This document shows positions 3,667 through 8,135 of a stretch of 35,025 nt of DNA, piece by piece. Both the position numbers and the translations under genes were made by a program. Source of the DNA: Treponema sp. Its GTDB lineage: Bacteria > Spirochaetota > Spirochaetia > Treponematales > Treponemataceae. How positions within the stretch are numbered: position 1 is the stretch's first letter; every line of letters begins with the position of its first letter. The notes beneath the pieces were generated by a model that did no database searches, had not been told where the DNA came from, and saw nothing but the letters and a program-made list of their open reading frames with translations. Where the stretch lies: contig JAGCTZ010000084.1 in the NCBI GenBank assembly GCA_017963165.1, forward strand, positions 1 to 35,025, given 5' to 3'.

Positions 3667-3667
3667 A

Positions 3668-3740
3668 TAGGGACAATAGGACTCGGACCTATGACCGCAC
3701 GGATATGAGCCGTGTGCTCTACCAACTGAGCTATATCCCC
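3668..3740 (-). tRNA. tRNA with CAT anticodon (elongator tRNA-Met, or tRNA-Ile2)
   Basis: A 73-nt cloverleaf read from the minus strand: acceptor GGGGATA paired with TGTCCCT (ends in a G1-U72 wobble), D arm GCTC...GAGC, anticodon stem CACGG/CCGTG with loop CTCATAT (anticodon CAT), 5-nt variable loop, T stem ATAGG/CCTAT, discriminator A. CCA is not encoded. It lacks the initiator hallmarks (no mismatch at 1-72, no three GC pairs in the anticodon stem). Elongator Met and lysidine-modified Ile2 cannot be separated with certainty by eye. The T loop reads TCCGAGT, so position 55 is C instead of the almost universal T. It has its own promoter and terminator. Confidence 0.93.
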
Positions 3741-4055
3741 AAAACAATGTTAGTACTTTATATAAAAATAAGGGAAATGTCAAGAGGGATGTTGATATGC
3801 AATCAATTAGTAATAAACACTTTGTGGTGACTGCAGGCAAAAAACAGACATACTTCCGCTTCGACGTGCCAATCAAACTGCTGCTAGGCTTGCAAGGAAA
3901 GATTTTCCTTGCAAGCCTAGCAGCAGTTTGTTGTCCCGTCTACGCTCACGTATGTCTGTTTTTAACGTGATTTTATGATACAAAGTGTTTATTACAAATA
4001 AATTAAAAGATTTTATATCATCTTGGCTTCATTATTTTTATATAAACATTGTTTT
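3741..4055. repeat. Long composite inverted repeat next to the tRNA gene
   Basis: This gene-free stretch (3741-4079) is symmetrical about position ~3902. A perfect 27-bp arm pair (3874-3900 with 3904-3930) surrounds the 3-base loop GAT. Moving outward come a diverged pair (about 3854-3873 with 3931-3949, roughly 12 of 15 matching), a perfect 14-bp pair (3840-3853 with 3950-3963), a perfect 16-bp pair (3810-3825 with 3980-3995), and an outermost copy of the tRNA promoter region (3757-3771 with 4032-4046, 15 of 15; 3741-3749 with 4047-4055, 9 of 9, interrupted by 7 bases on the tRNA side). It lies between the nrdG stop and the tRNA. Confidence 0.85.
3755..3783 (-). promoter_or_regulatory. Promoter of the CAT tRNA
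   Basis: Perfect -35 TTGACA (3778-3783 on the opposite strand), 17-bp spacer, -10 TAAAGT; an overlapping TATAAA gives a second possible -10. The -10 lies about 14 bp before the first tRNA base. Confidence 0.7.
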
Positions 4056-4834: not shown

Positions 4835-5368
4835 TTAAGCGGTAACGGCTACCTTATTAAGAACAGCTTCAAGTTCTTCTACATTGTGGCAGCGTGCTGT
4901 TTCAACACCTGCTTTGTTGTAGAAAATTACTGTTGGTGCAGCAAATACACCTTTATTTGCTGCTTTGGAAAGTCCTTCGTCTGTATCAACATCAATATTG
5001 CGACCAGGCATTTCAAGATCTGCCATAAATGCTTTTACTGGAGGGCAGTTAGGACAAGTTTTGCGTGTATACATTTCGTATGTAACGCTTTCGAGATCTG
5101 TTGTTGTTTCTGCCTTTGTTATCTTTGCAGGAGCAGAGCATTCGCATGGCTCGTCTGCTGCAGTAATATCATATTCTTTACTTGCCTCAAGTGTGAACAT
5201 TTTGCGCTGGTCAAATTCATCACGCTTGCCTTTGTTCCAATGGTTTACAGATCTGTAGTAACCTACGATTCTTGCGTAAACTTCTGTTTCGCTTCCATGA
5301 ACATCTTTTAAAGCAGCTTTTGTTTCGGCAATTTCTTTTTCTACCTGTTCAATCGTTCTTAATTCCAT
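4835..5368 (-). CDS. Detached NrdD glycyl-radical domain fused to a redoxin
   Basis: A 177-residue protein with three parts. Residues 1-25 form a charged amphipathic helix (IEQVEKEIAETKAALKDV). Residues 27-58 match the extreme C-terminus of NrdD-type reductases, ETEVYARIVGYYRSVNHW then NKGKRDEF; Gly36 would be the radical glycine. After a linker containing CEC (Cys75, Cys77), residues ~95-177 form a glutaredoxin/NrdH-like domain with YTRKTCPNC (Cys105 and Cys108) and the cis-proline segment AAPTVIFYN. A strong Shine-Dalgarno (GGGAGGAG) and its own promoter show it is an independent gene rather than a frameshift remnant; 163 bp and a fresh promoter separate it from nrdD. Likely role: it supplies the radical loop in trans to the truncated NrdD and reduces the active-site disulfide. 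The role is inference; the motifs are directly seen. Confidence 0.88.
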   Translation of the reverse strand: MELRTIEQVEKEIAETKAALKDVHGSETEVYARIVGYYRSVNHWNKGKRDEFDQRKMFTLEASKEYDITAADEPCECSAPAKITKAETTTDLESVTYEMYTRKTCPNCPPVKAFMADLEMPGRNIDVDTDEGLSKAANKGVFAAPTVIFYNKAGVETARCHNVEELEAVLNKVAVTA

Positions 5369-5389
5369 CTTTTTCTCCTCCCATTTTTC

Positions 5390-5427
5390 ATATAAAGTTT
5401 AGTTTTGTAATAATTACAACTTTATAT
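5390..5427 (-). other. Leader hairpin in the 5' UTR of the radical/redoxin-nrdG unit
   Basis: ATATAAAGTT and AACTTTATAT form a 10-bp inverted repeat in the untranslated leader, between the promoter and the Shine-Dalgarno. It may stabilise the mRNA or tune translation; no known riboswitch fold is recognised. Confidence 0.4.
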
Positions 5428-5438
5428 TTATTCCACCT

Positions 5439-5454
5439 ACACTAAATATAGTGT
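5439..5454. promoter_or_regulatory. NrdR box over the -10 element
   Basis: The palindrome ACACTAAATATAGTGT (extended to CTACACTAAATATAGTGTAG, 5437-5456) fits the NrdR box consensus acaCwAtATaTwGtgt. It covers the -10 hexamer, so bound NrdR would block transcription. A further ACACTAAAAT half-box-like sequence starts at 5482, about four helical turns away. Confidence 0.8.
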
Positions 5455-5473
5455 AGTTTAACTGTGTTGTCAA
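5445..5473 (-). promoter_or_regulatory. Promoter of the radical/redoxin-nrdG unit
   Basis: Perfect TTGACA (-35), 17-bp spacer, TATATT (-10), on the minus strand between nrdD and the small gene. It explains how the small gene and nrdG are expressed separately from nrdR-nrdD. Confidence 0.8.
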
Positions 5474-5531
5474 CCTGTTTGACACTAAAATTCTCGGAAA
5501 GCACCTTAAATTTCTTTAATGTTTTTAGAAA

Positions 5532-7646
5532 TTATTTTGCTGCTGCCGAAAGTATTTTCTCTTTTTCGAGCTCCAGAGCCTTAAGCTTTTCTTTAAGAGC
5601 CTTTTCTTTTTCTGCCTTACATTTAGGACATTCAAACTGCTGTCCGGAAAGATATCCATGAATCTTACAGATTGAATATGTAGGCGAGATTGTAAAGAAA
5701 GGAATTCTGTACTTGTGAGAAATTGTACGTACAAGGTCTGCACAAGATTTCCAGTCCTTAAGAGCTTCTCCCATGAATACGTGGAACATTGTTCCGCCTG
5801 TATACTTGGTCTGGAGAGCTTCCTGATGGTCAAGTGCTTCAAATACATCTGCTGTATAATCAACAGGGAGCTGTGAAGAGTTTGTATAGAACGGTTCTGT
5901 TGTGCCACTTGTGATGATGTCAGGGAACTGTTCTTTGTCGTGTCTTGCAAGACGGTATGATGTAGATTCTGCAGGTGTTGCTTCCAGGTTGAAAAGATCT
6001 CCTGTCTGCTCCTGATAATCCTGCATCTTTTCGCGCATGTGCTGAAGTACTTTTTCTGCAAATGCCTTTCCTTTTGGATTAGCAATGTCTACTCCAAGGA
6101 AGTTGAGACAACATTCGTTCATACCGCACAAACCGATTGTATTAAAGTGATTTACGAGTGTCTTTAAGTAGCGGCGTGTATATGGGAAAAGTCCGCCATC
6201 ATAAAGTTTCTGGATTACCTTACGTTTTGTACAAAGGCTTTCTTTTGCAAGATCCATAAGATAATCAAGTCTCTTAAAGAATTCAGTTTCGTTTTTAGCA
6301 AGGTATGCAATCTGTGGCATATTGATTGTTACTACGCCGATTGAACCTGTAAATTCATCTGCACCAAAAAGACCACCACCACGACGGCGGAGTTCACGCT
6401 TGTCCAGCTGGAGACGGCAACACATAGAACGTACATCGCTTGGGTTAAGGTCAGAATTAACAAAGTTCTGGAAGTTTGGTGTTCCGTACTGTGCAGTCAT
6501 TGTAAACAGGAGCTTGGCATTTTCGGAATTCCAGTCAAAGTCGCGTGTAATGTTATATGTAGGGATAGGATAAGCAAAACCACGTCCTTCGGCATCTCCT
6601 TCAATCATAAGCTCAATGAATACTTTGTTTATCATATCCATTTCTTTTTGACAGTCACCGTAAGTATAATCCTGTTCCTTTCCACCAACGATTGCTTTTT
6701 TATCTTTAAGGTCATCAGGACATACCCAGTCAAGGGTAATATTTGTAAATGGAGCCTGTGAACCCCAGCGGCTTGGTGTATTTACACCGTAGATGTAGCT
6801 CTGAATACACTGACGAACTTGTTTTTCTGTAAGATGATCTGCCCTGATAAATGGAGCAAGATAAGTATCAAAAGAAGAGAAGGCTTGAGCGCCTGCCCAT
6901 TCGTTCTGCATAATTCCAAGGAAGTTTACAATCTGATTTACAAGTGTAGAAAGGTGAGTAGCTGGTGTTGATGTAATTTTATCAGGTACACCACCAAGTC
7001 CTTCTACAATCAGCTGGCGAAGCGACCATCCTGCACAGTAACCACTGAACATTGAAAGGTCATGAATGTGGAATGCTGCTGTTTTGTGTGCTTCTGCAAT
7101 TTCCTTTGAATAAATATTGTTGAGCCAGTAGTTGGCTGTAATTGTTCCTGAATTGTGGAGGATAAGGCCTCCAAGAGAAAAGTTTACGTTTGCGTTTTCA
7201 TTTACACGCCAATCGCTCTGTCCAAGGTAGCCATCCATTGTTTTGTTGATGTCTACCATGAGGCTCTTTGCATCGCGTACAGCCTCGTGTCGTGCACGAT
7301 AAAGAATGTATGCTTTTGCAACTTCAACTTCGTTTGCTTCGATGAGGACGCTTTCTACAATATCCTGAATTTCTTCGATGGCAGGAATAGAATGTGCACG
7401 TGCACCTGCAAGCTGAAGTCTGAGCTTTTCTTCAACTCTGTCTGTAAGGTCTGAAGCTCTGTTAGGGTCTTTGTGTTTTTCGACCGCTTCTATTGCTTTA
7501 CCAATAGCGATTTCGATTTTTGACCTGTCGTAATCTGCTATCTCACCCGATCGCTTTACTACCGATTTAATAAAGCCCTTTGTTTCTGAGTCGGAACTTG
7601 AACCCAGAAAGTTTCTCCATTCTGGAAAGATTGACTGTTCACTCAT
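5532..7646 (-). CDS. nrdD: Class III anaerobic ribonucleotide reductase, lacking its glycyl-radical C-terminus
   Basis: Large catalytic subunit that reduces ribonucleoside triphosphates to dNTPs without oxygen. An N-terminal ATP-cone (about residues 26-120, VKRSGEIADYDRSKIEIAI) provides allosteric control. The catalytic ten-stranded barrel follows, with CCRLQLDKRELRRRGGGLFG (Cys409, Cys410) and GLCGMNECCLNFLG (Cys507, Cys512, Cys513; one should be the thiyl-radical cysteine). The C-terminus has ICKIHGYLSG...FECPKC (Cys660, Cys673, Cys676), the remains of the zinc site, then a lysine/glutamate helix and a stop. The expected RVxGYxxPxxxxNKGK glycyl-radical segment, which normally follows within a few residues, is absent. 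It is encoded separately at 4835-5368. The ATG directly abuts the nrdR stop (TAAATG) and has a GAGGGG Shine-Dalgarno, so nrdR-nrdD is one operon. Confidence 0.95.
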   Translation of the reverse strand: MSEQSIFPEWRNFLGSSSDSETKGFIKSVVKRSGEIADYDRSKIEIAIGKAIEAVEKHKDPNRASDLTDRVEEKLRLQLAGARAHSIPAIEEIQDIVESVLIEANEVEVAKAYILYRARHEAVRDAKSLMVDINKTMDGYLGQSDWRVNENANVNFSLGGLILHNSGTITANYWLNNIYSKEIAEAHKTAAFHIHDLSMFSGYCAGWSLRQLIVEGLGGVPDKITSTPATHLSTLVNQIVNFLGIMQNEWAGAQAFSSFDTYLAPFIRADHLTEKQVRQCIQSYIYGVNTPSRWGSQAPFTNITLDWVCPDDLKDKKAIVGGKEQDYTYGDCQKEMDMINKVFIELMIEGDAEGRGFAYPIPTYNITRDFDWNSENAKLLFTMTAQYGTPNFQNFVNSDLNPSDVRSMCCRLQLDKRELRRRGGGLFGADEFTGSIGVVTINMPQIAYLAKNETEFFKRLDYLMDLAKESLCTKRKVIQKLYDGGLFPYTRRYLKTLVNHFNTIGLCGMNECCLNFLGVDIANPKGKAFAEKVLQHMREKMQDYQEQTGDLFNLEATPAESTSYRLARHDKEQFPDIITSGTTEPFYTNSSQLPVDYTADVFEALDHQEALQTKYTGGTMFHVFMGEALKDWKSCADLVRTISHKYRIPFFTISPTYSICKIHGYLSGQQFECPKCKAEKEKALKEKLKALELEKEKILSAAAK

Positions 7647-8135
7647 TTACTTTTCCCCTCTTGTGTCTGTTTCGACACCCCGTTTGTCAATATTTTTTAC
7701 TTCGGTAATGAATTCATCAAGGTTCTCAAAATGACGGTAAACCGACGCGAACCTTATATATGCAACCTTATCAATGCTGCATAATTTTTCCAACACGAGT
7801 TCTCCTAATTCTGAAGTTGATATTTCGCGGGCTTCTTTTCCTATTTTGATAGCCTGGTCTTCGATATCATTGGAAATCTGTTCGACCATAGCGGTTGGAA
7901 TAGGACGTTTTTCGAGGGCTCTGTCGATTCCTTTTTCAAGCTTTGCTCTGTCAAAAGGCTGACGTCGGCCGTCTCGCTTAACAACCATAAAAGGTTTTTC
8001 ATCAATGCGTTCATAGCTGGTGAACCGGTACCCGCAGTCAAGACATTCTCTTCTTCGACGAATGCTTTCTCCGTGCATCATTGTTCTTGATTCAAGAACT
8101 TTGTCATCTAAACTCCCACAGTAAGGACAACGCAT
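7647..8135 (-). CDS. nrdR: Transcriptional repressor NrdR
   Basis: Zinc-ribbon/ATP-cone repressor that senses ATP/dATP and shuts down ribonucleotide reductase genes. Residues 1-40 form the DNA-binding zinc ribbon, with Cys3, Cys6, Cys31 and Cys34 and the basic SIRRRREC segment. Residues ~49-139 form the ATP-cone (VVKRDGRRQPFDRAKLEKGI). The length of 162 is normal. The Shine-Dalgarno AAGGAAAG precedes the ATG. The gene is the first of the nrdR-nrdD operon, and its own promoter carries two NrdR-box-like sites, implying autoregulation; a third, near-perfect box controls the downstream radical/redoxin-nrdG unit. Confidence 0.97.
   Translation of the reverse strand: MRCPYCGSLDDKVLESRTMMHGESIRRRRECLDCGYRFTSYERIDEKPFMVVKRDGRRQPFDRAKLEKGIDRALEKRPIPTAMVEQISNDIEDQAIKIGKEAREISTSELGELVLEKLCSIDKVAYIRFASVYRHFENLDEFITEVKNIDKRGVETDTRGEK

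Follow-up and report, generated by a model that had tools for sequence, protein, structure and literature searches.

A Treponema class III ribonucleotide reductase whose glycyl-radical loop is encoded by a separate gene and fused to a redoxin domain

In class III ribonucleotide reductases (RNRs) the radical glycine sits on the catalytic chain. Here we describe a class III RNR encoded in two pieces on a 35,025-nt stretch of Treponema sp. DNA (assembly GCA_017963165.1, contig JAGCTZ010000084.1, positions 1 to 35,025; hereafter the window). Its catalytic subunit, NrdD, ends without the glycyl-radical loop, and this loop opens a separate small protein that continues into a redoxin domain. The split itself is a confirmed observation. 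Judging from sequence comparisons, we think it quite probable that the enzyme works in two modules, with the activase NrdG charging Gly36 of the small protein and the small protein docking on NrdD.

The nrdD gene (704 aa; 7646-5532, minus strand, as are all nrd features given below) encodes an ATP cone (residues 28-121), a barrel and a zinc ribbon (residues 658-676; 5619-5675), with matches to PF03477, PF13597 and PRK08270 (1081.6 bits). The Pfam NRDD profile (PF13597, 562 positions) matches NrdD over positions 1-531 (582.8 bits, E = 9.8e-175), and its positions 531-562 match residues 26-58 of the small protein (E = 5.6e-8; 5195-5293, with the Gly36 codon at 5261-5263). Because the two pieces are complementary, the cut can be placed at the junction between zinc ribbon and radical loop: ATP cone and zinc ribbon were kept on the large protein and the loop alone was moved out. 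The first-pass annotation of this DNA had stated that NrdD ends 28 residues past Cys676 without a radical motif, and that the loop starts a separate 177-residue gene (5368-4835) leading into a redoxin domain, with Gly36 and a CPNC motif; the profile matches confirm both statements, and Gly36 and CPNC (residues 105-108) stand as given. The radical glycine is thus found not in the C-terminus of NrdD itself but on the small protein.

On each side of the cut a helical stretch appears to have been added. The small protein begins with residues 1-25 (5294-5368; helix 6-21 in the model described below), and NrdD ends in a charged tail (residues 677-704; 5535-5618) that is predicted to be helical and may be the dock of the small subunit; in a model of the homologue from locus L037 the C-terminal NrdD helix spans residues 674-702. 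Downstream of the loop, residues 95-177 (4838-5086) form a predicted thioredoxin-fold domain with a PF00462 glutaredoxin match at residues 98-138, the CPNC motif (5045-5056) and Pro145 at the cis-proline position. At E up to 1 the small protein matches PF13597, PF00462 and PF13192 only, with no match to PF01228, which we take to be the accession of the pyruvate formate-lyase radical domain, and at the same threshold NrdD has no match to PF02867, the class I/II catalytic domain. The two genes lie between nrdR (162 aa; 8135-7647; TIGR00244 176.7 bits, over the cut-off), for the RNR gene repressor, and nrdG (250 aa; 4832-4080; PF04055), which encodes a radical S-adenosylmethionine activase and starts 2 nt after the small gene, so that the NrdG neighbour of class III RNRs is present.

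The first-pass annotation had proposed searching for other genomes in which a loopless NrdD lies beside a radical-redoxin gene, and such genomes proved common. We found 1094 homologues of the small protein (at least 120 among the matches listed), and a single genome scan yielded 47 loci under the titles Treponema, Spirochaetales, Spirochaetaceae or Spirochaetia. All four genes, in the order nrdR-nrdD-small gene-nrdG, are present in 42 of these, the remaining five (L001, L002, L004, L009, L018) being cut by contig ends; nrdR is present in 43, and in just one locus (L045) undetermined bases, read as X in the translation, break up the small gene. Not one of the 46 NrdDs from the 47 loci has a radical-loop match. 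Among 53 aligned small proteins, a selection from those fetched, none departs from Gly36, Cys105, Cys108 or Pro145, and loop and redoxin are joined by a long, variable linker. Cys204, Cys409, Cys410, Cys660, His663, Cys673 and Cys676 are invariant in all 31 aligned NrdD rows, and the last four of these make up a predicted C-terminal zinc site. With homologues and loci conserved to this extent, chance and sequencing error, the latter a concern of the first-pass annotation, are rejected as origins of the split.

A search that made no use of the small protein bears on the same point. When 70 Spirochaetota genomes were searched with PF13597, 38 gave a match. The NrdD body ends at profile position 525-539 in 28 of them, and a second, separate match, to the last 30-40 NRDD positions, is found in every one of the 28 (in one, G042, a stop between body and loop match was unchecked), so loopless body and separate loop go together independently of how the loci were selected. 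The remaining ten comprise four enzymes whole in one match (G021, G024, G037, G041), three whole with a long linker (G034, G046, G057; frames read), one with a stop inside one match (G030) and two divergent partial matches (G067, G068). The split form is therefore commoner than the whole one in this sample.

This co-occurrence also speaks to the proposal that the small protein is a spare part which repairs oxygen-damaged NrdD and is not an obligate subunit. The model for such a role is GrcA (YfiD), likewise a small free-standing radical-loop protein used in trans, which rescues damaged pyruvate formate-lyase (PMC8683613). Four genomes (G058, G205, G211, G036) carry extra stand-alone loops. However, GrcA belongs to the pyruvate formate-lyase family and rescues an enzyme with its own loop, whereas the NrdDs that accompany the small protein have none (0/46) and thus nothing to repair, and the separate loop is there in 28 of the 28 genomes with a loopless NrdD. 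We regard a mere repair function as very unlikely.

Small-protein matches occur in 142 of 296 Spirochaetota genomes, of which 132 were among the matches listed and could be classed and 10 were unlisted. By frame length and covered range, and with a query that favours the window's lineage, the classed genomes divide into 58 of type A (separate radical-redoxin gene), 48 of type B (separate short loop), 6 D-like (helix plus loop without a redoxin match) and 20 whole. In all, 40 regions of 38 genomes and then 20 more were read; most of the type-B loop genes read are 53-73 aa long when counted from the first start codon, and frames were read for 19 of the 20 whole genomes (G250 unread). A reported frame length may span a stop, as in L037 (895, but with a TAA at 7980-7982). 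A class I/II enzyme was also found in 18 of 18 type-B and D-like genomes tested, so the split enzyme is not the sole reductase there. Besides the nrdD-adjacent loop, the extra loops of G205, G211, G036 and G058 are possible spare parts, and G039, G080 and G082 also have more than one stand-alone loop.

In five genomes (G189, G035, G047, G181, G142) nrdD and the radical gene share a contig but are separated by 95-527 kb. Such distances exclude readthrough, and we consider it highly improbable that readthrough, a frameshift or splicing joins the frames into an ordinary single chain. Both genes share a frame in 21 of 54 loci, which is about chance level, and a single stop separates nrdD from the small gene in L037; against this, the frames differ in the window and in 33 of the 54 loci, and the small gene comes with a promoter-like site, a ribosome-binding site and a start of its own. 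In the regions read from the genomes with unlinked genes, the radical gene stands beside nrdG (L106, L107 and L108, the loci of G189, G035 and G047) and nrdR beside nrdD (L157 and L158, of G189 and G047). Together with a palindrome common to these units, the arrangement points to a catalytic module (nrdR-nrdD) and a radical module (radical subunit-nrdG).

The small gene of the window is predicted to have its own promoter: between nrdD and its start lie a -35-like TTGACA (5473-5468) and, after a 17-nt spacer, a -10-like TATATT (5450-5445), followed by a ribosome-binding-site-like GGGAGG (5377-5382). The TATATT overlaps the palindrome ACACTATATTTAGTGT (5454-5439), the sole such place in the window, which is, by the NrdR-box consensus, a candidate NrdR box. 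Taken by itself, the window's count is unremarkable (a single place hit once on either strand; 11 of 100 shuffles reach two hits), and the case for an operator therefore rests on conservation. A pattern derived from the window itself was applied to the 38 intergenic regions that measure 60 nt or more, the window's among them: 31 contain an NrdR-box-like palindrome with at least 12 of 16 matches, in every case exceeding all 100 mononucleotide shuffles, and 28 of the 38 contain the promoter pattern TTGAC-N12-20-TAnnWT. Allowing up to three mismatches, 34 of 47 loci have the palindrome ahead of the small gene and 14 of 47 have it ahead of nrdR; it is absent from the small gene wherever the gap measures 93 nt or less. 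Among the unlinked genomes, each of the L106, L107, L108, L157 and L158 units is closely preceded by a palindrome that differs from the window's at one or two positions, and in G189 and G047 both the nrdR-nrdD and the radical-nrdG unit carry it; when L106 was shuffled, about one hit per strand was expected at up to four mismatches.

As candidate thiyl cysteines the first-pass annotation had named Cys507, Cys512 and Cys513. This turned out to be wrong: these residues are kept in only 24, 28 and 23 of 31 NrdD rows and were rejected, whereas Cys204 and the MCCR pair Cys409 and Cys410 (motif at residues 408-411; 6414-6425) are kept in all 31. The MCCR cysteines are likely the thiyl/disulfide cysteines. 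NrdD thus has the finger-loop and beta-A cysteines of class III enzymes and, counting the MCCR pair with Cys204, the third active-site cysteine of thioredoxin-type NrdD2. The MCCR finger loop marks a double-cysteine lineage, 83% of whose members retain the Met and seem suited to formate or thioredoxin (PMC9669993), and in Thermotoga maritima NrdD, where the motif reads SCCR, the enzyme is inactivated by mutation of either of its two cysteines (PMC4493059).

A pseudo-fusion was also modelled, and in the model the loop is placed where the radical glycine of solved NrdDs sits. VIA rows give the first and last aligned residues only, with aligned ends of model 758 to 4coi_A 634 and model 752 to 1h7b 587; model Gly745 then falls on Gly621 of 4coi_A and Gly580 of 1h7b, if the alignment is ungapped to the end. 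Foldseek gave root-mean-square deviations of about 5-16 Å between the whole model and its NrdD matches. Two mixed folding alignments, A1 and A2, were dropped for wrongly placed radical loops, and A3 was used.

Whether the split enzyme is the working reductase can be judged from 30 genomes reached from the loci (16 plus 14). It is the only NRDD body in 15 of them (G001, G002, G003, G006, G007, G016, G308, G309, G310, G313, G314, G317, G097, G295, G319), which include T. bryantii NK4A124, B25 and XBD1002 (G001-G003), and a class I/II large subunit (PF02867) was found in 0 of the 30. With no other NrdD match in half of these genomes and PF02867 in none, the split enzyme would have to be functional. 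We therefore give very little credence to its being a decayed or regulatory remnant beside another, working reductase, a very improbable reading that can appeal to the additional NrdD matches of other relatives and to the class I/II enzyme of all 18 type-B and D-like genomes tested, and that has to explain why the catalytic cysteines of the split NrdD are invariant. A second NrdD, with this one inactive, was among the circumstances that the first-pass annotation had named as fatal to its proposal; a second NrdD is absent from those 15 relatives and present in 14. As an observation on these second enzymes, a whole NrdD of another type was seen as a locus in 9 of 16 genomes (L048-L056; tail like CGYIGTQYWNQGRTQEI).

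Several points weigh against a working two-part enzyme. Another NrdD match accompanies the split one in 14 of the 30 genomes, and G311 has a partly assembled split body plus another NrdD match. The completeness of the genomes searched is unstated and many are metagenome-assembled. The 30 genomes and 47 loci were found via the small protein, whose presence there is by construction. The window's NrdG scores 123.8 bits against the NrdG2 model, just under the cut-off of 131.15. The structural model, that of the L037 homologue, is moderate (predicted local distance difference test 72 overall and below 50 in the finger loop at 410-434, predicted template modelling score 0.60, 31 alignment rows), and the short read-through linker of the pseudo-fusion favours contact. 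Finally, the separate loop comes without a redoxin match in 54 of the 132 classed genomes (48 type-B and 6 D-like). Set against these are the 15 genomes with the split enzyme as the only reductase found, the unlinked halves in five genomes, the invariance of Gly36 in 53 of 53 small proteins and the fit of the pseudo-fusion model. On this comparative evidence the first-pass proposal that the small protein supplies the radical to NrdD in trans appears strongly supported.

In the mechanism that we propose, NrdG would generate the glycyl radical at Gly36 on the small protein, whose N-terminal helix would then dock against the C-terminal helix of NrdD. The docked loop would enter the barrel, and the radical would pass to an MCCR cysteine, starting ribonucleoside triphosphate reduction. 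With less confidence, we suggest that the CPNC redoxin may re-reduce the disulfide between Cys204 and an MCCR cysteine, so that radical and electrons would come from one partner. A loop cleaved by oxygen could be replaced without remaking the large subunit, since the radical subunit has its own predicted promoter.

Electron delivery to the active site by the fused CPNC domain is plausible because CxxC and Pro145 are invariant and the NrdD is of MCCR type. The domain has the thioredoxin fold, CxxC and cis-proline of thioredoxins and glutaredoxins; with the NrdH model TIGR02194 it scores 13.9 bits, well below the cut-off of 85.75. Alternatively, the radical may be supplied in trans while the redoxin serves docking, protection of the loop from oxidants or another enzyme. 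We consider this somewhat unlikely, though it would suit the long, variable linker and the many split relatives without a redoxin match; the 54 such genomes mean that the redoxin is not needed for the split as such. Pointing instead to electron delivery, a redoxin follows the loop in single-chain enzymes as well (NrdD, loop and redoxin match share one chain in 10 Spirochaetota loci), and NrdDs of the MCCR type are thought able to use thioredoxin (PMC9669993). Two further loci, L120 and L121, resemble the one-chain redoxin enzymes in length and C-terminus without having a redoxin match. A human gut phage record, MT835493 (L137, 3012-5444), which was the sole phage match, was rejected as a split phage enzyme: its 810-aa frame encodes a whole NrdD-loop-redoxin chain.

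The split extends beyond Spirochaetota. On plasmid pHG1 of Cupriavidus necator H16 a loopless NrdD is accompanied by a 66-aa radical gene, E6A55_RS33455, and by nrdG. The order recurs in three Paracoccus species, P. ferrooxidans, P. denitrificans and P. versutus, where the radical gene measures about 60 aa. The C. necator subunit has 6190 short-protein matches, counted without their NrdDs and possibly including fragments from short-contig entries, with Hydrogenophaga, Roseateles, Ottowia and Pseudoxanthomonas among the matches listed. Plasmid relatives in Acidiphilium and Geoalkalibacter are whole. In a quick maximum-likelihood tree of 68 NrdD cores (columns after Cys676 omitted; support from the Shimodaira-Hasegawa-like approximate likelihood ratio test, SH-aLRT, only; L124 and L161 on long branches), split and whole forms require at least four changes. 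The whole Acidiphilium enzyme joins the split Cupriavidus/Paracoccus pair with a support of 100, that of the pair being 94, and the whole long-linker enzymes of L143 (1539-3932), L144 (1644-3929) and L147 (1815-4238) group with the split enzyme of L093 (100), which suggests that the long-linker enzymes arose by re-fusion of a split gene.

Among the known systems close to the window enzyme is the double-cysteine (MCCR) NrdD lineage (PRK08270; T. maritima, N. bacilliformis), with which it has the ATP cone, barrel, MCCR motif, beta-A cysteine, zinc ribbon, NrdG neighbour and radical-loop profile in common. The described MCCR enzymes, in contrast, have the radical glycine in the same chain and not on a separate redoxin-fused subunit with its own predicted promoter. 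The split class II enzyme NrdJa/NrdJb of Pseudomonas aeruginosa likewise has a C-terminal domain in a separate gene (PMC5704485, PMC9669993), but it is B12-dependent, and NrdJb is a cysteine-rich domain for reduction rather than a radical carrier. In Facklamia ignava NrdB a redoxin is likewise fused to a radical-generating subunit, though of class I and ferritin-like (PMC6187632). Interruptions of nrdD by introns, inteins or unexplained breaks are known from phages; as far as described, these are a different phenomenon.

The first-pass annotation knew of no described example for a ribonucleotide reductase. We likewise found no description of a separate class III radical subunit in the literature searched, which consisted mostly of open papers (work of 1999 on C. 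necator and of 2014 on N. bacilliformis may mention the split). An operon of the same type has, however, been studied genetically: the C. necator H16 pHG1 operon has the same split, without a redoxin, and its NrdDG is essential for complete denitrification (PMC2864759). The nrd genes of C. metallidurans are numbered Rmet_5137 and Rmet_5139 in a passage citing Siedow 1999, leaving 5138 between them.

A two-chain enzyme gives experimental access to the radical on the small protein alone, where it can be generated, quantified, labelled, mutated and exchanged. It makes testable how NrdG reaches a normally buried loop and how electrons reach MCCR active sites, and it suggests a route by which anaerobes could repair their reductase after oxygen exposure. 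More tentatively, and with rather less than even confidence, class III reductases may be widely modular, with a dissociable and separately regulated radical carrier that would be charged by NrdG off the large subunit and swapped after oxygen damage; the Treponema redoxin would alternate with the loop at the active-site mouth, letting the small protein deliver radical and electrons alike, and splitting and re-fusion would have recurred. The annotation of entries named hypothetical protein or NrdD can be corrected to radical subunits. Radical subunits appear under the first name in P. ferrooxidans and under the second in C. necator.

Plasmid pAt1 of Allochromatium tepidum (L163, 2460-2645) has a 61-aa loop gene annotated nrdD beside a zinc-finger-containing protein; the 6.6-kb stretch of L163 gave no match to an nrdD body or nrdG. 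In the window, a tRNA-Met gene (CAT anticodon) lies downstream of the nrd cluster at 3667-3741.

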